DNA of 64,000 nucleotides. It comes from Xestospongia bergquistia (Eukaryota; Porifera; Demospongiae; Haplosclerida; Petrosiidae). This document shows positions 1 to 39,754 of the stretch, piece by piece (position 1 is the stretch's first letter; every line of letters begins with the position of its first letter). Below the pieces are notes generated by a model. The model saw only the letters and a list, made by a program, of their open reading frames with translations. It did not search any database and was not told the DNA's origin. The DNA lies in the NCBI GenBank assembly GCA_963965975.1, contig OZ014419.1, positions 620,001 to 684,000 of the forward strand, written 5' to 3'. Made by a program: the position numbers and the translations under genes.

Positions 1-204
1 ACTGTAAAAACATTGTCTGACAAACAACCACTGTTTTTGAACTTTCTTCTGAACTGGTTGAGGTGGAGTACAACCACATGACTCCCTCAATATGTTATAT
101 TAAAATGTGGTTATGTCATTGATAGCTCCTGATTTATTTTATTATGTCGTTCTCTGTACTGTTTATCATACTCTTAAAATATATCTGTCTTCTCTCTATA
201 TTAG
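1..204. other. Left-edge stretch, probably a RECK intron
   Basis: No convincing coding exon is visible before the acceptor that opens the short exon at 205. The stretch is AT-rich and is probably the end of an intron of the RECK-like gene. Confidence 0.4.
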
Positions 205-3200
205 GGCAACCTAACAAGATGTCTTAATGATGGTAAGTAATTGATGACACACAAATGTTGCATATGCAGACATAAATTTTCTAACTCTACAAAATATGAT
301 TATGTTAATAAGATTTCTTTAAAAGAGAATTTTATTTTGAGGTTGGTAAAGCCATAAGAATGAAATAAATGAATATTTAACTGATGATATAATGACATTA
401 TAATAAAGATAATATACACTTTATTACATGTTATTATATTAGTTATTACATGTTATTATATTGTGTCCCATAGTTAATACAAGCTGTACATTGGGATGTT
501 CTGGTCTGACATTCTGTAAAAATTTAAATAACAGGTTAAAAATAAAATTAATCCATTTCACTATTCATCCATCCATCCACCTATCCATCCATCCATCCAT
601 CCATTCATTCATCCATCTATCCATTCATTCATCTGTTTGTCTATCAATCCATCCATTTTATCTATTTATGCAGACCACTTACTATGTTCAGACAATGCAA
701 AGCACTTAGTGACACAGCTGCTAAGTTGGACTATACCACTTGGAAGAATCGGCAGATAATATATCATCCTTTAATAACTATTTATACACTAAATCTGGAG
801 ACTTGTTATCCAGATTGGTGGAAGGCAGCCGCATGTGTCTTTCAAATTCAACCCTGTCAACCTAACACCCACACATCATTACTATGCAAGTAAGCCTCCA
901 TCCATCCATCTATCCATCCATTTATCCTTTCAATATAGAGATGACTGTCTATTCATGATGAGGGCCTGCAGTACTACACCTAACAAAACACCAGAAGAAA
1001 TATGTGAAATTTTATCTCCTTCACATCTTCAAGAGGATTGTATATCACTGGGAAATTACTTAAGTATGAAACAAATCCCTAAATATGATAACTTGAATAG
1101 ACTGTTTGATATACATGATATTGATGTAATTATATTATTGTAGTAGCTTGTCTCGCATTGTTTGGTCTCGTTGATAAATTAACCCAATTTTCCTAGAATT
1201 TTACTGGTTGAAAAACAACTAGATAAATTTGCACTTTCATTCCTTCTCTTTAGATGAATCCACCTACACACCTGATGATTTAACAGATATCACAACACCT
1301 TGTACATCAAATCCTTGTGTTGATGGGAAGTGTATCATTAATCATGGTTGTACAGACTCCAAGGATCAGACGTGTGTTCCATATTTATGTGTGCCTGAAT
1401 GTGAACTAGGCAACAGTCCAAAGCTAGTGTTAGGGGAACTAGATGTTGTCAATGTAGCTACATTACCTAATATTGGAAAGGAATGCTATGGTTATGTTAA
1501 TAGGACGAGTGGTACTCGTGTGTTTGGTCAACAAACTAAAGATCTTAGACATGAATATTGTATCAATCTGAGCAGCTGTAGCTATAAAGGAACAAACTAT
1601 AGTAAGTGGTCTATATATTATCTGTATGTCTGTCTGTATGTTGTCTGTATGTATGTCTGTCTGTCTGTCTGACTGTATGTTTTAATCTATAACTACACAG
1701 CTCATGGTGAGGTCTTTAGTGACAGTTGCAACCTGTGTACTTGTCAGTCGGGTCATGTGACATGCACACGTCATGTTTGTCCTAGGACAACAGAAGATTT
1801 ATGTTCCGTTCTATCATGTAATTGTCCAGCCTTGTATAATCCAGTATGCACCAATAATGGAAGAACATTACCAAATGTATTTTTTGCTAAGTAAGTTAAT
1901 AATATATATATACCAAGTTTTATTTATTTTATATTTATAGATGCCTTGGTTACACTGCTAATCAACAAACTAGTGGGTCTTGTACTAAGGATACTGATCC
2001 TTGTGACCCCTCCCCTTGTCCCTCTAATGCTAAATGTATCCCTTATCGTCATGTGTGTATATCAGAGAGTAACACTACTATACAACATTGTCCACAATAT
2101 AGATGTGGTGAGAAGATATGAGTATGAATGAGACTGTAGTATGAGTATGAGTCTATGGTATGGATTGAGACTGTAGTATGGGTACGAGTCTATGGTATGG
2201 GTATGAGAGGGTTTTAGTTATGGAATATTTTCTTTTCACACAGAGACAGCAAAAACTTGTAGTAAAAACAGGAATACATTAATTTGTGATCAGTCTGGAC
2301 AACAACACAATTTATTATGTAATTTTATTAATACTGAAGAAAAAGTTGACTATTATGGATATTGTCAGGTATAGTTGGATAGATTGATGGATAGATAGAT
2401 GGATGAATGGATAGATGGCTAAATAAATGGTCATACAAACACACACAGGATGAATGCTCTCAAGAAGAAAGGTTCTCAGTATGTGCTATTAATGGGGAAA
2501 CATATGTCAGTAAATGTCATGCGGAAGGAGCTGGCATGGCTGTAGATTATATTAGAGATTGTCGAGATGTACCAGCTGGACAATGTAAGTATTATAAACA
2601 CACATATATAGATGATGATATTCTAATTTATTTCAGATGGGTGTGAGCAAATAAAATGTCCCGGTTTACCATATGTTAGTTCATATGAGCAATGTGTTGG
2701 ACCTACTCCACCTGGAGCCTGCTGCCGACAATGTGGTATGTTATACTAACACATATTACAGCTTCTATAGATGCTAAAATATAGTTAGGTTAAAATCTCT
2801 TTAAAAGAGAATGTCACTATTACCCTGTCTTGTTCTAGGTGCAATGGTACGTGTCATCATCAGTCAACAACAGCTGTCACGGAACAGACAAGCAATGGGT
2901 GTGGCCAGTATTGATTCCACTGAGATAGTAACTCGATTAAGATTACATATTGCTATAGTGAGTGTACAATATTGTTATTTTATAAAATTAACTATTAAAT
3001 TTTCCAGCTGCAATGTAAATTGGTGGGCTATCAAGCATTTGATGGAACTTTTATCTTTTTATTACTACCATCAAATACATCATCCTATCTAAATGTAAGA
3101 GATATATGTGTAGATGGACGGATGAATGTTAATTGTCACATCTCTTAGATCCAAGCCTGTAATGTTGAGGCTACTCGCTTATCAGTACTAATCAACACAG

Positions 3201-3391
3201 GTAGTCCTCTCGTAGTATCCGATCCATATCTCTCCTTCTTTGTTGCTGCTGACCACACCCATGCTCGTAAACTCTTAGCAGTTGATAATATAACTAGTGC
3301 TCCTATTTTACCAAGTGGGCGTGGTGAAGTCAATTCCTCCAGCTTCTATTCAATGTTACTAATACTGTATGTATTTATTTTGTTATTATAA
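205..3391 (+). CDS. RECK: RECK-like GPI-anchored Kazal protein, 3' portion (5' end outside window)
   Basis: Thirteen exons follow the order of vertebrate RECK, a GPI-anchored cell-surface glycoprotein that restrains matrix metalloproteases and, in vertebrates, assists Wnt7 signalling. Exons read as about 205-231, 474-534, 674-889, 939-1063, 1254-1601, 1701-1890, 1941-2106, 2244-2368, 2449-2584, 2637-2735, 2839-2957, 3008-3094 and 3149-3391. Visible motifs include LGCSGLTFC, ICEILSP, a TPCTSNPC segment, Kazal-like repeats (NPVCTNNGRT; FSVCAINGETY...AVDYIRDC) and the PPGACCRQCG lead into the conserved C-terminal domain (VRVIISQQQL...LRLHI). The protein ends in a short hydrophobic tail (MLLILYVFILLL) directly before TAA, as a GPI-attachment signal should. 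Introns carry ATCC and TCTG simple repeats. The true start lies left of the window. Recognised from family memory; exon borders are read from GT-AG sites. Confidence 0.9.
565..660 (+). repeat. ATCC-type simple repeat in RECK intron
   Basis: Tandem ATCC units with some ATTC and TATC interruptions fill the intron between the RECK exons ending at 534 and starting at 674. A shorter ATCC tract follows at about 893-927 in the next intron. The open frames rich in HPSI through these tracts are repeat artefacts. Confidence 0.85.
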
Positions 3392-3742
3392 CCAAATGTT
3401 GTAATGATGTCATAATCATCTCATATCATAATTTGTTATCCGTCAACAATGTAAATTAATTGTATAATGTTTTGGGCCAACATTTACAAAAGACAACAAA
3501 TATTTCTTAACCCTTAATCCTCCATGTGTCAATTACCCATTACAAATATGTAATAGCCATGTTTATGACCATTAACACAATTGACACAGCTACTTCAAGT
3601 AGAGGTTTCCATAGTAACAAAAACATATCGTACTTAACAATGTTAGGGGCTGTAATAATTACTAGATAATAATAAAAAGTAATACTAGATAACATACAAC
3701 ATTTATAAAACACATTGAGTACATGTACATAATGTAATTGAA
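3392..3742. other. Tail-to-tail intergenic spacer RECK / OSR1
   Basis: About 350 bp between two convergent stop codons. It is AT-rich, holds AATAAA-like signals on both strands (for example around 3670) and a TGTACAT palindrome near 3720. I see no gene. Confidence 0.5.
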
Positions 3743-6700
3743 TTATTTGTTATCAGAAACTACATAAAGTTGAGCATAACCTATCAACTTTTTATCGTCC
3801 AATAATTCTGGAGCCACATTCCCCTGTCATAGAGAGAAAAAAAATACAATATTTACAACCTTCATAAGAGAGCTTGATATACATGTACATGTTGAGAGTT
3901 AGAAGGCGTGGCTATGTCTTGTTAACTTACCACTTGAAATGTCAATTTTTGACCAGGATGTTCTACTAATTTTTGTATATTTGCTGCAACTGGACAAAAA
4001 AATATGAATGGACAATTGATGTATGAAAGGATGAGGAACAATATAATATTTTAAATAGACACACCTACAACAAGTTCTCTTCCTTCCACAAGTCCAGCTG
4101 ATAATAAATCCTTAGCAATAGCATCTGCACTGTCTACAAGACAAATGCATATCACATGACCATCACATGACTGAATAACCTACCAGTTCCAAGTACAAAC
4201 TCAAATTTAATATCTTTCAATTGATTCTGTTCTGTCCTAAAAAATCAAAGAAATAAAGGATTAGGTTTGAGTCTGGATGAATTCACTGTATGGGTTTGAG
4301 TCTGAGAAGTAACAAATCTGACCTCTTTCTTAATGCTATTTTCAAGACCTTTTTCTCTGACTCTGTTTGTCCTTTGCTGTCTCCATGTGTTGAGACAGAG
4401 GAGAGGTCCTGGGACATAGAAAAGGAGATATATCTATACAAAGAAGAGTTCTGAGACTTACATGTTGTCCTGTGGTTTGTAACTGTTGAATTTGTACAGC
4501 AATTTGTTGTTGTTGGAAGTTTAATTGTTGTTGTTTTCTTTCCTTCTCTTGTCGCTGTAAGAAGTAATTAATAATTACAATAAACAGACAACACTCCATT
4601 TGTCTCTCCCAACACATCAAACAACAACAATACAACAAACAATAACAATAGATATAACACAATAACAATAGATATAACACAATAACAATAGATATAACAC
4701 AATAACAACAATACAACAAACAATAACAATATATACAACACAACAATATATGTCAATAATACCTGATTCAACAAGTTCATAGCTTTCTTTTGATGATCTG
4801 GAGTAGTCATTAATTCTATATAGTGGATATAATATAATGTCACAATATATTAATGTATAATTATTAATTGTCTCACTTGGATTTTGTATTTGTTCTGTCA
4901 TCAACTCTTGTTCTTTATCTCTTATTTTTGAAATCTGCTCTTGAAGGCTTTTCATCTCTTGTCCGATCTGTTGTAATCGGGACTGGAGAGAGGTGAGAGG
5001 TGAGGGAGCTGTCGAAGATCCTGTGTTTGTTGAAGAGGTACCAAGTGATGTAGTGGATGGAATACGTAAATTAGAGGGGTTGTCCTAAGATGGAAAAAAC
5101 AAACAAACAATACGTCAGACTTGAAACTTTAGCAGTAATCAAGTAATTACTTCTTTTCTTTGAGAGGATTCTGACAATTTTTCAGCTTGTGCTTCCTAAA
5201 GATTCCATTATTGAAATATTTGATAATGGAGAAAAAACTTACTCCATCTTCTTTGTATTCTTCTCTCAATTCGTCATCTGACCACACCCATCCACCATCC
5301 TCTGTCCGGTGAAGACGTCCGCTAGTACCAGCTACTCTTTTGACCTGTTCATGTTACATGTAAAGATACATGAAATGATGTCTATTGGTACCTTTTTAGC
5401 TCGTGAAGCTAGAGTAGGAGCATTTCCTAAAACAACTTCCTTAACAAATTCCTTATCCTGTAATTAATTCATAAATAATTCATAATTAAATGGGTGTGGT
5501 CTTTATAAATCGAACCTTTGCCTTTTTGAAAAATGGATGTTTTAATAGTTCAGTTGCTGTAGGTCTAAAAATAAGTAGATAATCAGTTTAAAATTTTATA
5601 GATTTTATTCAGACCTCTTAGCTGGGTCTTTACAAAGACATTTTTCAACCATTTTCTGAAACATCTTGGAATAGTTCTTGCGATAGTCTTCTCCATTTAT
5701 TTCAGAACAAGTGTCCAAAGTCGGGGATGGATTTTCCATAGTTAACATTAATACCTATACCATATGACCATATAAGGATATAGTCATAACGTGTATCAGA
5801 ACCTTCATAGGAGGGAATTTAGCATAAGGAGCACTACCAGTTGCTAATTCAAGAGCAGTGATACCAAAACTCCAGATATCAGCTTTAGCATCATAACCCA
5901 CACTTTGGTCCATTACTTCAGGTGCCATCCAACATGGTGTTCCTACAAAGGTGTAGCGTGGGTTTCGCTTCTTACCACCACCAGCCTCCCCATATAACCA
6001 ACTACTGACTCCAAAATCTGAGATAGAGAGAGAGAACATCAGACAGACAGACACACATATCTATTACCTGCCAGTTGAACTGATCCATCTTCTCCTATAA
6101 GAATATTGCCAGCTTTTATATCTCTAAACAAATACCAGTTATTAAAAGTTATTAAATTATTTATCACACTGACCTATGTATTTGACCATTTCCATGAAAG
6201 TACTCCAATCCTTGAAGAACCTCTCGCAAAATAGTTGCTATAACAACCTCATCAAGAACCCCACCTTTATTACCCTTATCCATGACATGTTTTATAATAT
6301 CCAAAAGTGACCCTAATATATAACATATCACATGATTCTCACATGATGTTCCACTCACCTCCAGACATAAGTTTCATAACTAGCCATAGTTCAGATTTGA
6401 CCACAAAAGAGGTGTGATAGTTAGTGACATTAGGATGATTACAATTACACATTAAATTGATCTCTTTCTATGAAAGGGAAAAGGAGGTAATGGAGAAAGA
6501 GTTGACGAAAGACGGAAAAAAGGAGAGGGGGAGTAGGATCCAAAGGAAAATGAGAGGACAAAAAAAATTGTAACAGTTAACTTTTAAATCTCAATTATCA
6601 TATTCTTTTATACATAATTAATATTTTGTGTAATTATGTTATTGACAAGAATTAGATATTAATACCTGCAGTTCTTCTATAGACGATTTGTATTGTTCTA

Positions 6701-7006
6701 AATCGATGCGTTTAATGGCCACTTTCTCTTTACGTGGCAAACACATAGCTGTTTGTACCACAGCTGTAGCTCCACTACCTATATTGTATATAGAGATCAT
6801 ATGATTGTCATAAACACGTGGACATGGATTAAAAAAGATTTATAATCTAGTTGTTGGCAGGAATAGAGCAGTTTATTTTTACCTATAACTTCTAGGAGCT
6901 CGTAGTCTTCTTTTCTATTAGGCCACGGTAATGGTGGCGACTTTGAGACAGTGGGTTCAGAGGAGTCCACTTCAGTAGTTGAAGAAATTGTATCACCAGT
7001 AGCCAT
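3743..7006 (-). CDS. OXSR1: OSR1/SPAK-type Ste20 kinase (WNK effector)
   Basis: Serine/threonine kinase of the germinal-centre-kinase VI group, which WNK kinases activate to phosphorylate cation-chloride cotransporters. The start at 7006 ([11 protein letters not shown]) precedes [15 protein letters not shown] at the kinase entry. Further exons give [11 protein letters not shown] (catalytic Lys), an HRD loop split between exons ([13 protein letters not shown]), DFGVSSWL, and the activation loop [17 protein letters not shown], whose Thr matches the WNK-phosphorylated residue of OSR1/SPAK. After the kinase come a conserved linker ([16 protein letters not shown]), a Gln-rich coiled stretch ([19 protein letters not shown]) and the C-terminal CCT/PF2 domain ([29 protein letters not shown]), which in the family docks RFxV/I peptides. 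The CDS ends ...QLYVVSDNK at TAA 3743-3745. One gene here probably represents both vertebrate OXSR1 and STK39. Confidence 0.93.
4621..4740. repeat. 20-nt tandem repeat in OSR1 intron
   Basis: Three perfect copies of a 20-nt unit (AATAACAATAGATATAACAC) occupy 4641-4700, flanked on both sides by related AACAACAATACAAC sequence. The unit lies in an intron of the kinase gene. The CYIYCYC-rich open frames on the minus strand here come from the repeat. Confidence 0.85.
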
Positions 7007-7185
7007 GGTTAGGGCAGAAACTAAACCACACCCACAGGTGGGGTAATTATTATTCATGAATAATAAAACTATTGACTTAATTATTAAGTATATTTTCATG
7101 AATAACTTATTATTATTATAAATTTTTACCCTGCAGCTCTCAATTTAAGTTGCAGCTGTTAAATATTAACTTTAGCGTGCCTTGA

Positions 7186-8602
7186 TCAATCAGAATCACT
7201 TTCGCTCAATTCTAGATCATGTCTTAACATTGACATTGTGCGAGGCCTCACGTCAGTAACTGTAGTACTATGGGCAGCTGTGACAATAGGATGAGAAAGT
7301 GCAGTTTCCTAGAAAAAAGGTTACAAAAATGAAACATCTAATTTGTCCATACCTTTCCAGACGTGTCAGATGAGGAACTGCCTTCATCATCGCTGCTATC
7401 AGATGAACTACTTGAATCACTCAAATTGGCTTCCCCTTCTCCTTTAGACACAGTACCTACTGTTTGTCCCATACTTGTAGTCATGTGACTGGTCATGTGA
7501 CTTCCATGTATGACAGCTGGTACATCCACATTGACAGGAGGTACAGAAGTGAATTGTGGCATGGAAGGAAATGAGGCTGGGGGAGGTTTTTGAACTGCAG
7601 TGAATTCCACGTCTAAGTCACTACTGTCAGAATCAGACGAGCTACTTGATGCATTTGAGGGAGAGGATTCTGTTCGTACTTTTTTTGATGGAGGAGGTGG
7701 GATGAGTAGTGGAGGTTCTGGGGTGGGATTATTGGAACGAAGTGGAGATATGGACTCAGGGAGACTTGGCATTGTAAGTAGGGAGGTACTACTTGTAGTA
7801 GGAGGAACTAATGCAGCCTGAGAAGATGTAGGTACAGCTTTATTAGTTGACTTGGGATCTTTAGTTTTCCCTTTTTTATCTGGTTTCTTGGGCTGTTTTG
7901 TTTTCTTTTTAGTGGCAGCAGCTGTACAATCATTGGTCATATAGTTAGGTTTGGTGGATATCATACCAGGTTTAGAAGGTGTCATAGTACTAGTTGTTGT
8001 AGATTTGATTTGAGGTGGTAGAGGGGAGACTGAACGTGGTTGTTTTTTCTTTTTCGGGTCTCTAAATGAAATGAGAAGAACATCTTATAGCAAGGACAGT
8101 ATTAAGGAGACTGACCTTACTCCTTTTAGCTGGACACTATTGCTTATTTTTTCTAAGACTGCCTCCTAAATTAAGTAATAAAAATAAGCGTCACATTGAG
8201 TATCAACAAGGCATACCCCTGTCAATGTATTAATAATTAAAATGCATTCTTTTGTACAGGTCCTTTTTGCACCTTTGAAAAGAACAACATCATCAGCTGA
8301 TTCTGCCTATATAATATGAAACAGAGATTGACCACAACTTAAGTCATTTATTACCTGCATTGTAGGTAGCGATACAGACACCTCTTCTCCGTTCACTTTC
8401 ATTCTGCCAAGCTTTGAGGAATCAACTGACTTAGGTTTAAAATCATCTGTAAATATCACTGTGGATTAAATGTCTATGGTTAGTATTACATACATTTTAT
8501 AGTGTGGAAAGAATTCTCCTTAGGAAAAGTAAAGCTTCTTCCTAACTTTACTCGATATTCCTGGTCTAATGAAACAGGGAGTTGGAAAGAGCTCTCGGCC
8601 AT
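7186..8602 (-). CDS. EAF1: ELL-associated factor (EAF1/EAF2 family)
   Basis: EAF proteins bind ELL and stimulate RNA polymerase II elongation as part of super/little elongation complexes. The start at 8602 gives MAESSFQLPVSLDQEYRVKLG, followed by the EAF core over several short exons: SFHTIKC, DFKPKSVDSSKLG, VNGEEVSVSLP, VVLFKGAKRTCTKECILIIN, VLEKISNSVQLKG. The long 3' exon (about 7355-8060) is Lys/Pro-rich and then Ser/Asp-rich (NASSSSSDSDSSDLD; SDSSSSSDSSDDEGSSSSD), like the transactivating half of vertebrate EAFs. The last exon ends LRHDLELSESDSD then TGA, nearly identical to the vertebrate EAF C-terminus. It is head-to-head with the penta-EF-hand gene, 65 bp between start codons. EAF1 and EAF2 are not distinguishable; the ancestral single gene is likely. 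Confidence 0.93.
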
Positions 8603-9724: not shown

Positions 9725-12700
9725 TTAGTTCAAGTTAGTTGTGTGAGCTCGCTTTTGCTGTCGAGCAATGTAAATATCATTAGAAGGAGGAGCAGGTCCT
9801 CCATCTTCACTATTCTCCTCTCCATCTTCCCTCCGTCTTTTTTGAGCCACTCCTCCAATAGTATTGGACTGAGAACTTAGAGTATCTGGAACAGGACTAC
9901 GAACTATCAACTCTATCAGTTCATCTATGTGAACAAAGGGACCCTAGATAATGGAATGGGTTAAAAATAAAATCATATACAAATTATATATACATGAAAA
10001 GAAGTAGGGGGAGGTAAGAGAGACATTAATTGGATAACAGCAGAGGGAAGAGGAAAATGGCCTCCAGGAACAGCATTCATACCAACACCTAACAAGTAAG
10101 TCAATCATTCTGCCATTATTATATACTAGATACCATTTATAATGCTAGGTTTAAATGACAACATTTGGGTAACATCAGGTTTTGAAAATTGCATCTCATC
10201 ATCAGTGGAAGAAACATTAGGCTTGAGAGAAACAGTTGTACTGGATACAGGAGTACCTTTGCTAACAGACTATTAGGAAAATAGAGAGATAGAGATGTAC
10301 ATCCATACACACACAGACATATACCGGATGTCCTATGTTTTTTAGGTCCAAAGAAGTACAAGGATACAAGTCTAAATACTTGTATCTATCAACTAATAAT
10401 ATTGAGTCAACACTTTCAGTATCCTAAAATATACAAAACTAATGTTTATTTTTTGAAAGAATGTTAACAAGTTACTTTTTCTACTTGCAATTTCAAAATA
10501 GTCCCTCGTCTCTTCTCTACTTTCAAAACACTTGATAAGTCACCCACTGTTGATTCAAATGACATGAATTGTTCCCATAACTTACTAAACTTTGCTAAAT
10601 ACATTACAAGAAAACAATTGTCTTCTTACCTTGAATCTTCTGAAGATACAGATGAAATAGCCTTCTCAAATAAAACACGAGTGTTATTATCCTCTTTAAG
10701 AACAAACAACAAATCAATCTGTAGTGATGGCAGCAGTCATTCCACTAACCATTTAAATGAGACAGATAATCAACATAAGCTAAAAGAAATCCAACATTGT
10801 TTGAAAACTTTTTCATTCCCAGTTCAAATATTCTAAATGCTATGTCTTTGTCCTGCAATATGGATAACCATGTGATAATCACATGACTTTAACAAATACA
10901 GCACCTTTGTAATGTAGTACTCCATCAGTGCAGCTGCAACATATGCCTGTTAAATAAAACCAATAATTTCATTCCATGCTTGGACATGAGTCTATTGGCT
11001 CACATGATAGCCACAATTGCCATCTTCTCGTGCTCTTTTAAATATAGTACGAGCACCTTTAATACCTGAGGTTCTCCGACTGAAGTTCATATATTGAACA
11101 TATATCTAAGAAACAGTTAAGATCAGGATATCAATGAGATGATGTGTACTTACTAAGGTACAGTCTGTCTCTTTATTTGTCAGTAACCGGTTATAGACTG
11201 CCTCTGCTTTATCATAATGTTGAAGAGATTCCTCAAAATCGGCATAAGCAAAATTAATTAAAAGGTTATTAGCTAGGGGCCCAGCAATAGCACGTGTATA
11301 CATTGCAATGGCTTCATCAGCCCACTGTTGAGAGAGGGGTGTGTCCTAATCAATAAGAGAGACATATATGCAACTGTACGTAATCAGACATACTCTAGTG
11401 TCACTGGCTCTCTGGAGATATAGTGCTGCTTCATACCACACATCAGGACAATGACCAAAACACAAAAGAAATTGATTGTATGCATAGATCACTGGTAAAA
11501 CAAGTTCATAAAACTTGTACAACAGGTTTTCATTACAAGTTGTACCTCTTTTCACTATAGTGGGTCTGTCTTCAGTCCTCAGTGGATTCTGTTTCTCCCA
11601 CGTTAAATAACGTCGCCATATTTGTAGCTATGGTGAACAAAAAGTTATCAGTAGTGTGTCCACATGTGAACACACCTGTTGTGTTTCTTGTACAGTTCCT
11701 TGTGGCGGTATGGAGGTGCCACCCCTTATTAGTCCTCTAGTGACATTCTCATATTCATGTGCCGCTCGCTTAGCACATATATAACCTCGACTTTGTGCCT
11801 CTGTTAACTTTTTAGCTGCAGCTTTGTTGACATTCTATTGTTAATATTCACAAAGTGAATTATGTACAAGAAATTTGTAATAGTCCACCTGCTCAAATGT
11901 ATTATAGTCCCGCCAAATTTGCTCAATAGCTATTTTGGGAGAACTGATGGCTTGTTGGTATGCTTTTCTTAATGATTGTATTTTGAGGTTCTCTGCGAAG
12001 GATCCTTGAGCATTTCTAGATCAAGAGACAAATGTTACACAAGTAATCTCCCTAACAATAAGCAAGGACCACCCCTAATCCATGCAGCCCCACATACTCT
12101 TGATGCAGAAATTCTATATACTCCATCCAAATAGGAGAAGAGTGAAAATCCAGTCCCATATGCTCCAGTGTGAATTCATATGCATTATGAAGTTTCTCTC
12201 TGGAGAGAGAATGCACATAATTAATTATCAAATGTTTCCCCAAAACTATCGACTATTTACAGGCACCTGTAATTTGGTAATGGTGCTTTTGTCTCTCTAA
12301 TGTAAGTAATATATAACTTCCAGAGATCAATATGAAGAATATCCATCAGACATCGTTGAAACAGCTGGAGAAGAATGAAAATAGCCTCTTTATCAGTCAC
12401 ATTCAGTTGCTATGCTAACCTACCTTCTCTACATCTTCAAAACAGTGGTGTTTCATCTATGAGACACAAAGAAGGACGTAGACTGTAAATTGATTTAGTT
12501 GTTACACGTGAACAAATTAAGTAGCCATGTCAGGTAATGTGACTCATTTCAAGAGGTTTTAGATGGTCATTATAATCTGGTAGTAATTATTATAATATGT
12601 TCTTTTTATCACTTATCAAGGTACAGTTATTACAGACTTTTTGAAATGTTTTAGTGTATTTTTGGCTAAGTTTTAATTTTGTTTGAGTTAACTTGACAAG

Positions 12701-13214
12701 ATTCACAGGTTTCATCATACCAATAGAGGTACAAGTAAGAAAAGGGTTAAAAATTAAAACCACACCTACTAATCCTAAACCTGACACACTTAATTGTACA
12801 AGTAATGTAAAACATAGGTTAACTATAGCTTCTAAGAATACCTCCTGTTCAATATAAACCCTCCAATATCGAGCTGATGTCGGGAACTGGGTGACCAGCC
12901 GTTCATATAACATTCTTGATCGAACAGGTGCTGTTGACTGCATAATTATACAATGTATTATATCAGTCTCATTGCAAGAACAGAAAAGCTCTAATCAATT
13001 TACACAACATACCTGTGCTTCTCTTAACAAGATAGCCCAGCTATCCAGATCGTAAGGATTATTTTTTATCTTCATTTCAGCTCTCTTGCCATGATCAGTA
13101 AGTGCCCAAGGTCCTGAGGCTAAACCAACTTCCTAAAATATTACATAGAGACATAGTCAGTGTTAGCTACTGACGTACCACCGACTCAGTTGTGTGTCTA
13201 TTATCTTCACTCAT
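9725..13214 (-). CDS. CSTF3: Cleavage stimulation factor subunit 3 (CstF-77 / Rna14)
   Basis: Scaffold of the CstF complex in pre-mRNA 3' end cleavage and polyadenylation. The start is at 13214 ([12 protein letters not shown]). Successive exons encode HAT repeats: [104 protein letters not shown]. The C-terminal tail keeps the CstF-77 signature: a [13 protein letters not shown] segment, an acidic/Lys-Arg stretch ([16 protein letters not shown]) and [12 protein letters not shown] before the stop at 9725. At least fifteen exons are separated by short introns. It converges on the PEF gene (about 155 bp between stops) and diverges from the TIR gene (89 bp between starts). Confidence 0.94.
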
Positions 13215-13303: not shown

Positions 13304-15688
13304 ATGGCGACTGAAGATTTAATAGCAGTCTACTTAACTAAAGACACCTGCTCTGAGCCATGTCAACAAATTAGTTCTTTATTACTTCCTTCTATTAATC
13401 AACCAGTCAGTGTTCTCCGACAGACAATACTTGCTAAGTGTTCCTCTTTCTTCAGTGAACGACAGTCTTTTGCGTTTGTCACTCCTCGTGGATGGGAAAT
13501 CGATGAAAGTTTGGAACAGACCGTTAAAATTAGCAGTCTCATTAACGAGGAATCGATAGTGAGACTCAGAATGAAATACTCCATGATACGAGTTGGTTTA
13601 GTCTTTGGAGGACAGGCAGTAGGCTTTATTTACCTCGATAGTCTCGCATGTTCGCTGCTCGAGTTACGAAGTATACTACAAGATCAACATCCACATTTGT
13701 TTACTGTTATGACTGATGAGAATGCACTGTTTAAAGATAACAATGGTTGGCCTATTTTAAGCAGTCAAGAAAAACAGTTTAATGTTTTAAATGTTCTTCA
13801 AAGCAATACAATTTATTTGACTAAGTCAATGTTTGTTACACTATCACCAACTCCTTCAGATCACAAAGCAACTCAAGTTTATGGAAAGAGTTTGCAGCAT
13901 GAAGTAAACAAATCTTCACTTGATCAACCCAAAGAACCAGAAAATTCGTCTCAAATGAATGAAATGATTGTTCATAATCCTCTCATTCATCAACCTCGTA
14001 GTCCTGCACAATCGCGAAAGTCTTATCAACCATTGGAAATCATGATTAGTTACGTACATAAAGAATCTGCCAAACATGCTAAATTGTTGAGCACTGAACT
14101 AAACAGGTTGGGCTACTCGGTATTTCTAGATATGGTTCACATCAAGCCAGGTGATGACTGGCAAGATGCTCTCAATGAAGCTGTGTGTAACTGTAATCTT
14201 TTCATACCATTGGTTACTTCACTCTACGGACTAACAGATTGGACCAACAAAGAAGTCAAATTAGCTGATACTCTGTCAAAGTTCATTATTCCTGTCAATT
14301 TCTTGTTGACATGGCCACCTATGTGTTTGGCCATCCAGTTTGCCACCACTCAATACATTTCCATGCATATGAACAACCAGCTGGGGTTAGATGCGTTAGT
14401 GAGTAAAGTTGCTGCAGAAATAGCTGACCAGTACAAGACTATGCAGGCATTAATAAAAGAAAGAGAAGAAGTAATTGAAGAAAGTAAAAATGAAGAGATA
14501 GAAGAAGAGGCACCATCTCCATTGAAAAAAGGGCTAGGATCTAAAGGTTCTCTTCCTCGTTCATTACCTGATATGATTCGTAAATCCATCTTCAAGCCTC
14601 GTATGGGTAAGTCCCTGGTTGTTATTAGTTATCACCCAGCACAATTAGAATGTGTTGAAGCAATAAGAAACCATTTGGAATCACGAGGGTACGATGCTTG
14701 GGCAAGTATGGCTGGAGATGATCTTCAGAAACGTGAAGTCTTTAAGAAGAAAGTCAATACTGCAGGTGTTGTCATTTTTGTTCTCTCTGAAGAATACGCT
14801 ACCAGTCAATCCTGTGAACAGGAAGTGTATTACTGTGAGGGCAGGAAACGTTTGATCCCCGTCGTTGTCAATTCTTTCCAGATTCCTGGATGGCTGTCTA
14901 CGTTGATTGGAACAGATACATTCTTGGATTATCGTGCTACCAACTTTGAGGAGTCACTCCTGGAAGAGGTGGAATGTGCTACTGTACCTGCAAAAGCTGA
15001 AGTCCGTCTACGTAAACTTGTAGAACAGAAGACACAGCTTCATCGTATGTGCTCAGACCTCAAAAAAAATCTACCTAATGGACAATTAGTTTATGTAACT
15101 GGGAGTACCAAAATCTTATATAAAAATACTATAGCTATTTGTCAGAAATTTGGTGAATTATTAGCTCAGCAGATGGACTGTTTCCTAGTCACTGGTGGGT
15201 TTTATGGTGTCGGAGAGACTGTTGGCCAAAGTTTTTACAAAGAACGTCAGAAACTAGGAGGACAAAGTGACAGTGTTATTCACATACATGCCAAGAAAGA
15301 TGCCCAAGATCACTCCATGCAGGCCCAACAAAACCCAGACGGTACATTTCAGGAGATGTCTTATGGCAAAACCTTATTTTACAGTGATAGCGTACGACAA
15401 CGAGAAATGCTGACGCCTAAAGTAATTGATTTATGTATTTTAATTGAAGGAGGACCAGGGGCAGCTTTTGAAGCCCACCAGTTCTCATGGAGTGCACACA
15501 CTGTAATACCTGTTCAAGTGACTGGTGGAGCAGCCAGTGGTAAATTTAATGTTCCTCCTGCCATTTTCATGAAACCAGATCCAGTCCAAGAATCTGATTG
15601 GTCAATACTATCAGATGTAGGTGCTAAACCTGAGGAAATAGCAGTCGCACTTGTGAACATTGTGAATTCTATTAAACCACCTCATTAA
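13304..15688 (+). CDS. Single-exon TIR-TIR-SLOG protein (794 aa)
   Basis: One uninterrupted 794-residue frame in a region where nearly every other gene has many introns. Residues 1-175 look like two beta-grasp (ubiquitin-like or PB1-like) units in tandem. A first TIR domain spans about 244-380: IMISYVHKESAKHAKLL box 1, YSVFLDMVHIKPGDDW, and WTNKEV with Glu317 where SARM1-type TIRs carry the NADase glutamate. An acidic linker (385-410) precedes a second TIR at about 435-555 (LVVISYHPAQLECVEAI; CEQEV with Glu507 or Glu505 at the equivalent site). Residues 594-790 are a Rossmann-like SLOG/LOG-type domain with LVYVTGST (595-602), FLVTGGFYGVGE (627-638) and ILIEGGPGAAFEAHQF (712-727), the Gly-rich nucleotide-binding signatures of that family. 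SLOG domains bind NAD-derived nucleotides in bacterial Thoeris ThsA and occur in TRPM channels. Enzymatic activity here is inference. No signal peptide or membrane segment is seen. Confidence 0.85.
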   Translation: MATEDLIAVYLTKDTCSEPCQQISSLLLPSINQPVSVLRQTILAKCSSFFSERQSFAFVTPRGWEIDESLEQTVKISSLINEESIVRLRMKYSMIRVGLVFGGQAVGFIYLDSLACSLLELRSILQDQHPHLFTVMTDENALFKDNNGWPILSSQEKQFNVLNVLQSNTIYLTKSMFVTLSPTPSDHKATQVYGKSLQHEVNKSSLDQPKEPENSSQMNEMIVHNPLIHQPRSPAQSRKSYQPLEIMISYVHKESAKHAKLLSTELNRLGYSVFLDMVHIKPGDDWQDALNEAVCNCNLFIPLVTSLYGLTDWTNKEVKLADTLSKFIIPVNFLLTWPPMCLAIQFATTQYISMHMNNQLGLDALVSKVAAEIADQYKTMQALIKEREEVIEESKNEEIEEEAPSPLKKGLGSKGSLPRSLPDMIRKSIFKPRMGKSLVVISYHPAQLECVEAIRNHLESRGYDAWASMAGDDLQKREVFKKKVNTAGVVIFVLSEEYATSQSCEQEVYYCEGRKRLIPVVVNSFQIPGWLSTLIGTDTFLDYRATNFEESLLEEVECATVPAKAEVRLRKLVEQKTQLHRMCSDLKKNLPNGQLVYVTGSTKILYKNTIAICQKFGELLAQQMDCFLVTGGFYGVGETVGQSFYKERQKLGGQSDSVIHIHAKKDAQDHSMQAQQNPDGTFQEMSYGKTLFYSDSVRQREMLTPKVIDLCILIEGGPGAAFEAHQFSWSAHTVIPVQVTGGAASGKFNVPPAIFMKPDPVQESDWSILSDVGAKPEEIAVALVNIVNSIKPPH

Positions 15689-36964: not shown

Positions 36965-39754
36965 TTATAATCTTTTTTGAGGTTCATAGACAGTGGGTAG
37001 CGAGATATCACTCTCATTGCGTAGGAGCCAAAGATAAGCTGCAACCAATGCTAAAAATGGCAGTGCTAAACACCAACAGAGATTCTCTTGAAATAAAAGA
37101 TTAAAACGGACATTAAAAGAGACAGAGTCACATTGTCTGTACTCGTTACATACTTCTAATACCATCATAGCACGAACTGGAATGGGTGGAGTCACAGCAT
37201 TTAAATTAATAAACTCAGTCATATGAGTGACTTTTAATGACTCATTGAGGAGAATATATTTTCTGCCTACACTTAACACAGCTGTATAATGATGTGGGGT
37301 CTTTTCCGAAGCCTTTCTGTCATGAATTTCAAATGAAAAGGAAAATGACTTTCCATGTGCATCTCGGGGACTAAGACTGCGACCACAGACTAGAACAAAG
37401 GTACTCTCTTTATGTGTAAATCCATTTCCTCCTAATGTATCAGATGGCCATGTTTCTACACTTATCTCATAGTCTGTTGGATGGACAGTACCAGTTGAAA
37501 AACATACTAATTCCCCTGATAGACTTGTTGCCAGTATTTCCAGACCTGGATTAAAAGGATCTATGTGATCAGATTGTAGTGTGTGAGGTATAAAATCGTG
37601 TTCAGTAGTAACATGGTCCACACATCCAGCATACAAGTCGACAATGTATACACCACTTAAAGATGGAACGATAGCAGACAAATGATATCCACCTTTAGGA
37701 GAAGACAAGTGTATAAGAAGAGGTGAAGAATGGACAATTGTATTTAAACTCATCGGTGTTGACATGGTAGGTTTTCCTGTTGTACCATTAATAATCCACA
37801 GGTCACCAAATTTAGACAACAAAATAACTTCCATGGAACTGTCTGCATGAAAATTGGCAAATCTTGCACTCAATTCTATAGGCATTTTAACATTATACTC
37901 CCAGAGTTGTTTCCCAGTTTTATCGACACAGATAATGTTACCACTTTTATCCCCGACGACTAATTCTAGATTCCCATCCCCTGTGAGATCTTCAACAGCA
38001 ACTTGTGCTATAATGGAATCTGCTGTGACAGGAAAACCAGGAGCATCTTGAAGTTCAAGACCTTGAAGAACATGCAACTGGCCTGCAGTTGAACCTATTA
38101 TAATACTTAATGGGTCGCCTTTACTGAGTCGTACTACAGTGGGTGAACCCAGTAAATATGAAGGTTGGTCTGATGACAATTTCGTCAAACTAAGCAATCG
38201 TTGTTTAATAATTTGTTTTGTTTTAAGACTTATAATTATTATACCAGATGCTCCATAATTGATTAATTCCTCCTGTCTAAGTCCAGTTTTGATCAAATTA
38301 GAACTCGATCCGTATTGATGCTTGTCAAAGTAATAGCTTACAGGAACAATCATTTCATCTTCTTCCCCATCTTCGTTAATATCAATAATTACAGGGGTTG
38401 CCAATACATGAGGATCAACAAAAACATACATGTTGTCATTGGGATCCAAACCAACTGGTCTCTCTCCGGGTTGGTGCCGAGAGAAAAGAGTATCTGCATC
38501 GTGACCGAAATACGAATCAAACTTAGAAAACTGGTCTGAATCAGACAGCTGTGGTTCTTGTTGAATAGGTTTGTAGGATGGATTCTACAAGTAAAAATAT
38601 AGATAAATAAGTATGTGTAATCATATGCCATATAGCAGGGAATCTTTGTGGACAAAATATTGGTAAGTAGATTATAATACTAGTAAAATTAAGTTTGATA
38701 CATATGATGACAAACTTAATGAAAAATGTCTCTTCAAAAAACCAGGAAGTTTGTTGTTCTTTTAAAATATTTTGTAAAGTGTAAATGACAACCGAGAGTA
38801 AAAAGTTAGAAAGCATACTCACTACTTGCTCCACCCACTACCACACCCCACTTGCTCCACCCACTACTACCACACCCCAAATAAAACATTGGAGGATAAA
38901 AGTTTGACAAACGAAACACGATTTGCCAATTTTTCTTCCTCCAAATTTACCCACTATATGGTACATAATAATTACTGGATTGAACTTGAAGCGATTTCCT
39001 ACTTGTTTTGTCATTTCTGCTGCTAATCTCTCTATATAATCTTTCTCCAAGCTGTACCAATCTCTTCTCACTCGTAATGGAGGAATCTAACAGAAAAAGA
39101 GGAGACAAGAGACAGATGAAGCAAGATGAAAGCATAGCTTAGTAAACCTTTATTGTGTCTCCATGGAATAAAGTGTTATTGACTCGGAGAAATAAAACTT
39201 CAGCATCAGTAGTAGTCAATACTATATCAAGTTGTCCATTTCTGTCAACATCATACTGAAAATATATAAAGAGGTTGACCCTGTTATAATAATATCTTGA
39301 TTAATAAAATAACATACAGCTAATGGACTTGCAAAAAAAGCTCGATCTTCTACATAAAAGGGCCAGTTGTCAACAATGTGTCCATTTTCTCCATGAATAG
39401 CCCAAACTTCACCTGAATAGGAGGGAGCGATTATGTCACGTAAACTATCACCGTCCACATCAATTAAAAGGGGTGTGGCCATAAGTGGTGATTCTCGAAG
39501 ACGAGATGTCCATAATGTCTTGAGATTGAATTGAGAGCAACTGTAGATGTGTAATAAATAACTAATCAATAATTATAATTATAATTATTAATTCTCAATA
39601 TTAATTAAGATTAATTTTTCAAGCTAATTAATTAATGGTGCCAAAAATTTAGTGTATTTTACCTTTCTCTTTGCTTTTTGGTGTCCTCTTCGCTAGAGCA
39701 TTCCTGTATTGTTAACAATAGAACAGTAACTAGAACCAGATGCAACGAGCTCAT
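36965..39754 (-). CDS. DEX1-like FG-GAP type I membrane protein
   Basis: Homologous along its length to plant DEFECTIVE IN EXINE FORMATION 1. The start at 39754 gives a signal peptide (MSSLHLVLVTVLLLTIQ). Next come repeated beta-propeller/FG-GAP units: LWTSRLRESPLMATPLLIDV, DGDSLRDIIAPSYSGEVWAI, WPFYVEDRAFFASPLAV, VLFLRV-type, and later ATPVIIDINEDGEEDEMIVPVSYYFD, GSPTVVRLSKGDPLSIIIG, DLTGDGNLELVVGDKSGNI. The DxDGDG/DxNEDG loops are possible Ca2+ sites as in integrin alpha propellers. The last large exon (36965-38449 and beyond) carries one transmembrane helix (WCLALPFLALVAAYLWLL) and a short cytosolic tail. In plants the protein acts in pollen-wall patterning; its animal role is unknown to me. 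Confidence 0.87.

Follow-up and report, generated by a model that had tools for sequence, protein, structure and literature searches.

A sponge gene for a ubiquitin-like–TIR–TIR–SLOG protein and its relatives across animal phyla: a candidate NAD-signalling family

The window analysed here is a stretch of 64,000 nucleotides from the genome of the sponge Xestospongia bergquistia (contig OZ014419.1, positions 620,001 to 684,000). The gene of interest lies on its forward strand (13304..15688) and is a single open reading frame (ORF) of 794 codons, running from ATG to TAA without an internal stop; the uninterrupted frame and its homologues support it as one gene. In the 146.5-Mb, 21-contig genome, the sole match of the 794-residue protein at E <= 0.001 was the gene itself (15 candidates scored). 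Computation identified five domains, all encoded on the same strand. Two tandem beta-grasp ubiquitin-like (Ubl) domains, which were absent from an initial annotation of this DNA, lie within residues 1-179, the first at 13310..13579 (residues about 3-92) and the second at 13583..13837 (residues about 94-178). These are followed by a low-confidence linker (13832..14017, residues 177-238; predicted local distance difference test score < 50), a SARM1-like TIR domain (TIR1; 14030..14446, residues 243-381), a second TIR domain that looks scaffold-like (TIR2; 14612..14983, residues 437-560) and a SLOG domain (15083..15673, residues 594-790). The protein is read here, tentatively and at slightly less than an even chance, as an intracellular animal nicotinamide adenine dinucleotide (NAD)-signalling protein in which a single chain joins a TIR NADase to a SLOG nucleotide sensor.

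Of the 203 relatives found in a database search, the best 120 were listed; a profile search added divergent ones, and each search scored about 8000 candidates. Alignments covered at least 90% of the query in 115 of the 120 listed relatives. The additions from the profile search were more divergent, and several covered a smaller part of the query. Among other sponges, named members were recovered in Amphimedon, Corticium and Oscarella. Beyond these Porifera, named members belong to the Echinodermata, Hemichordata, Mollusca, Annelida, Nemertea, Priapulida, Chelicerata and Platyhelminthes (the flatworm member being divergent), a multi-phylum distribution that goes beyond what had been seen from the window. 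Vertebrates, insects, nematodes and cnidarians had no named representative among the matches listed (120 of 203; about 8000 candidates scored), which does not show absence from those groups. Rotaria (P0189), the sole named rotifer among the matches listed, covered 15% of the query and was excluded.

A quick tree was built from 60 proteins, with a midpoint root for drawing only. Amphimedon queenslandica (P0007, 53% identity) and P0005 grouped with the window protein and P0002 (Shimodaira-Hasegawa-like approximate likelihood ratio test, SH-aLRT, 100%), and the window protein, three named sponges and 18 further rows came together with a support of 99. Echinoderms were placed with hemichordates (98), and groups of 14 molluscs (97) and 7 chelicerates (95) were also recovered. 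The tree was not clean: two annelids were separated, one of them next to the long-branched flatworm, and the nemerteans stood next to the ambulacrarians (84). Taken together, the spread and the quick tree suggest that the family was inherited from an early animal ancestor. Local duplication is also suggested, because P0067 and P0075, and likewise P0068 and P0076, seemingly lie on shared contigs.

Two TIR-like domains had been proposed initially, and TIR_2 (PF13676) matched the protein in two stretches (110.5 bits against a cut-off of 28), the best being residues 246-358. In a six-frame search, each TIR separately exceeded the same cut-off (60.7 and 58.4 bits). Residues were compared in an alignment of 158 rows comprising the window protein, P0001-P0120 and P0152-P0188; P0121-P0151, which are pieces of SLOGs or standalone ones, were left out, as was P0189, and counts refer to rows with a letter at the position. 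In TIR1, the catalytic-position Glu (E317, 14252..14254) and a neighbouring Trp were each found in 154 of 156 rows, both at the SARM1 positions. E317 matches the catalytic Glu of SARM1, which we take to be E642. When the TIR1 profile was compared with solved structures, SARM1 was the best match (E 1.5e-10), and it was the closest by both sequence and fold. From these residues and the modelled fold, TIR1 is probably a catalytic, SARM1-type NADase.

The same cannot be said of TIR2. The position equivalent to the catalytic Glu is Gln in 115 and Glu in only 23 of 157 rows. The window protein itself carries Glu there (E507, 14822..14824), as does an aligned TLR entry, and this residue is therefore no proof of catalysis. 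The TIR2 profile gave weak best matches to the TIRs of TLR and MyD88 among solved structures (E about 0.001-0.007), and TIR2 looks non-catalytic and scaffold-like. Thus, the TIR catalysis envisaged in the initial annotation is retained for TIR1 and not for TIR2. A pure scaffold or adaptor, in which the TIRs and the SLOG serve only protein assembly, as in MyD88, and the catalytic residues are relics, would fit the character of TIR2, the tandem ubiquitin-like domains as a means of recruitment and the decay of the SLOG motif in 12 of 153 rows. The near-invariant Glu and Trp of TIR1, together with SARM1 as its nearest solved TIR, argue against relics; because TIR1 is conserved, a scaffold-only role is less likely and is considered improbable.

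The C-terminal region had been described as a Rossmann domain of the SLOG type bearing VTGGFYGVGE and ILIEGGPGAAFEAHQF. This description was upheld: both motifs are present inside strongly conserved blocks, and residues 594-792 are predicted to adopt a SLOG fold rather than an unrelated one. The SLOG family LDcluster4 matched residues 596-735 of the window protein alone at 21.8 bits, below its cut-off of 26.3. In an alignment of 30 rows (A1; the window protein and 29 relatives chosen from the 120 listed), LDcluster4 was matched at E <= 0.01 by all 30 rows (best 1.5e-10), and STALD, the 'Sir2- and TIR-associating SLOG family', by 16. A chance motif was rejected on the basis of profile and fold. 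In HMMER alignments to 2a33, presumably the structure of a LOG, and to 9us2, a named phosphoribohydrolase, R700 (15401..15403) corresponds to the LOG-motif Arg and E723 (15470..15472) to the Glu of the LOG GGxGTxxE motif. The Arg is kept in 146 of 155 rows and the Glu in 140 of 153. Most members have Ala in place of the Thr of GGxGT, and the first Pro is also changed. The case for a nucleotide pocket, on which the initial annotation had staked its assignment, is one of conserved residues, which are consistent with a putative pocket.

Standalone relatives of this domain were also found. P0146, P0148 and P0150, which are 27-34% identical to the window SLOG, carry TGG, EGGPG and (T/S)GG blocks comparable to its own, and P0149 is a further one. 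Searching the PDB with the single window SLOG sequence (phmmer) gave no credible match. A profile to which the standalone relatives had been added (A3) matched TM1055 (7.4e-7), LOG (0.0017), TRPM2 (0.002) and ThsA (0.013); ThsA was missing from the PDB matches of a further profile, A9. The donor of the SLOG was presumably bacterial. In GTDB, 41 stretches fitted one of two narrow query patterns and one related locus was confirmed, in a Verrucomicrobia metagenome-assembled genome (L002), a count that is a lower bound. A search of plasmids with P0148 gave no match. PF18185 likewise had no match in the sponge's own genome; the control also remained without a match, and hence this result is uninformative.

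Several observations were made on other loci. In the Verrucomicrobia locus (1-8467), the standalone SLOG (5995-6651) adjoins PAAR-like and protein-kinase-like ORFs, recognised by eye, possibly a toxin or secretion neighbourhood. Inspection of its listed ORFs by eye, without a profile scan, showed no TIR-like gene. Elsewhere in the sponge genome (L003, 1288-2706, reverse strand, and L004, G000:C14:5757671-5760227), a 472-residue ORF is adenosine-deaminase-like by eye and fused to a LOG-type LDcluster4 domain (57.3 bits). About 2.2 kb from it, another frame of equal length also matches LDcluster4. TIR_2 has at least 34 matches genome-wide, two of them within the 13304..15688 gene, and a tandem TIR_2 array with a spacing of about 1.2-1.5 kb (G000:C4:6012662-6019696) comprises five equal scores and a sixth that is slightly lower. 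In the window itself, an exon-like ORF directly upstream on the opposite strand (12590-12943) matches Suppressor-of-forked (E 5.5e-5; 22.3 bits, cut-off 24.7). A reverse-strand ORF at 36965-38449 has a DEX1 beta-sandwich match of 36.9 bits (cut-off 27), with FG-GAP-like matches below their cut-offs. Bacterial contamination was rejected in view of the 21-contig, 146-Mb assembly, the neighbouring Suppressor-of-forked match and the nearest named relatives, which are animals.

The proposed mechanism is as follows. TIR1 would act as a SARM1-type NADase, as its fold and residues suggest. TIR2, whose catalytic signature is lost in most members, may contribute to TIR-TIR assembly. The SLOG would bind an adenine nucleotide, most likely one derived from NAD, such as adenosine diphosphate ribose (ADPR), a cyclic ADPR (cADPR) isomer or a breakdown product, so that one chain may both make and sense an NAD-derived signal. 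Within the same assembly the SLOG would gate TIR1, with control presumably running in that direction. Comparable readers are known: SARM1 uses its ARM domain to read nicotinamide mononucleotide (NMN) and NAD, and ThsA uses its SLOG to read 3'cADPR. The two ubiquitin-like domains may connect the protein with a signal from upstream or keep it within a complex. Such a protein would be located inside the cell, and a role in immunity or cell death may be supposed.

A number of results weigh against this coupled make-and-sense reading. The structure model has a predicted template modelling score of 0.42, and therefore no contact between the SLOG and the TIRs can be claimed. The kinship to the SLOGs of ThsA and TRPM2 proposed initially was borne out by the fold and by the profile with standalone relatives; an animal-only profile (A2, 12 SLOGs) gave borderline PDB matches only (TRPM2, E 0.026; LOG, 0.097). 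Unrelated proteins also appear among the PDB matches of A3 and A9 at E 0.04 and worse (from 0.045 for A3). Lys replaces the TIR1 Glu in two of 156 rows, namely P0155 (WTNRK, motif intact) and P0188 (motif disrupted). In addition, with the LOG-type Arg and Glu kept in most members, nucleotide hydrolysis by the SLOG is also conceivable. The main rival builds on this last point: TIR1 would make an ADPR-type signal and a LOG-like N-glycosidase SLOG would destroy it, a self-limiting switch with signal and antidote in one chain. The replacement of the LOG Thr by Ala in most members speaks against such an enzyme. So does the loss of the SLOG Glu in 13 of 153 rows that keep the TIR1 Glu, from which it follows that hydrolysis is not indispensable to the protein. 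The self-limiting switch is accordingly held to be unlikely.

The rows without the SLOG Glu are P0085, P0088, P0157 (Priapulus), P0159 (Tachypleus), P0169, P0170, P0172 (Halotydeus), P0173 (Crassostrea), P0177 (Dinothrombium), P0178 (Mizuhopecten), P0181 (Leptotrombidium), P0182 and P0185, and thus include bivalves, mites, a priapulid and Tachypleus. All 13 retain the TIR1 Glu, and the SLOG Arg is retained in 12. The GG pair is intact in five of the 13, as would be expected of a binding rather than a catalytic SLOG, and gone in eight. The GG motif is missing in P0157, P0161, P0169-P0171, P0173, P0177-P0179, P0181, P0182 and P0188, drawn from bivalves, mites, Priapulus, Physella and others, and in these rows the SLOG looks decayed. 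Among them, only P0188 (Lys) differs from Glu at the TIR1 position. Since the TIR1 Glu is kept where the SLOG decays, TIR1 appears to be the conserved core, and the SLOG pocket dispensable in some lineages. A universal make-and-sense loop is therefore disfavoured, and confidence in the coupled reading was lowered from an even chance to a little below it.

The same decay bears on a signal acting in trans, in which the readers of the TIR1 product lie outside the protein, TRPM2-type channels being one example, and the SLOG itself responds to an unrelated metabolite (such as adenosine monophosphate or NMN), or to nothing in some lineages. The retention of TIR1 where the SLOG decays agrees with this, and SARM1 is itself gated by a metabolite other than its own product. 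ADPR binding has been reported for the SLOG (MHR1/2) region of TRPM2 (PMC13143021). That most lineages have kept TIR and SLOG fused speaks instead for coupling; it leaves the ligand unspecified. Signalling in trans is regarded as distinctly unlikely.

Bacterial immunity pairs TIR enzymes with SLOG readers, and plant signalling uses TIR products. To our knowledge, the animal NADase TIR that has been studied is that of SARM1. The common ancestor of animals might have had a self-contained TIR-to-SLOG protein, a one-chain counterpart of Thoeris that survives in sponges, ambulacrarians, lophotrochozoans and chelicerates and may have disappeared from the usual model animals, with a cADPR-type messenger read by a SLOG in animals; this scenario is rather doubtful. 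The fused family makes the use of TIR-made nucleotide messengers by animals directly testable in sea urchin, starfish, Capitella and sponges. Those of its lineages that have a decayed SLOG and a kept TIR1 are natural experiments on the role of the SLOG in the family. Its presence in many invertebrates points to an animal counterpart, so far unstudied, of the NAD-based alarm systems of bacteria and neurons.

The sponge protein resembles Thoeris (ThsB TIR and ThsA SIR2-SLOG) in having a catalytic-type TIR and a SLOG predicted to share the ThsA fold. In Thoeris, TIR and SLOG are functionally paired, and R371, K388 and E403 of BcThsA contact 3'cADPR (PMC10022894, in part). The sponge protein differs in being a single fused chain that also contains a second TIR and a pair of Ubl domains, encoded in an animal genome; its PADLOC matches were TIR components such as ThsB (E 3.3e-7). 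Membership of Thoeris was rejected because the architecture is fused and Pfam matched no SIR2, macro or transmembrane effector domain in the 794-residue chain, the rest of the genome not having been searched for an effector. The initial interpretation, an animal counterpart of bacterial TIR/SLOG signalling, is partly supported.

SARM1 (C. elegans TIR-1) provides the solved TIR most similar to TIR1, with Glu and Trp at the same positions. The sponge protein has no Pfam match to ARM or SAM at E <= 1 and carries instead a SLOG, a second TIR and the Ubl pair. The N-terminal SLOG (MHR1/2) of TRPM2, which is reported to bind ADPR (PMC13143021), was matched by profile over residues 172-359 and has the EGGPG motif in common. 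In contrast to TRPM2, the sponge protein has no Pfam match to a TRPM-type channel domain at E <= 1, and TRPM2 has Thr where the family has the LOG Glu. Compared with LOG phosphoribohydrolases, PpnN and TM1055, the family has EGGPGAA(F/H)E in place of PGGxGTxxE and is fused to TIRs.

A recent preprint atlas describes uncharacterised TIR clades that are common in non-model animals (Culbertson et al., 2026; PMC13142454, in part), and these may include the present family. In the part of that source consulted, 'slog' has no occurrence, nor do 'lysine decarboxylase' and 'Rossmann' in the main text. No description of an animal TIR-SLOG protein was found in the literature, as judged by titles and abstract openings among the matches listed, which did not cover the SLOG survey of Burroughs et al. 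(2015). TIR-SLOG NAD signalling is a known kind in bacteria; its animal form, fused and Ubl-bearing, is new as far as the literature was searched.
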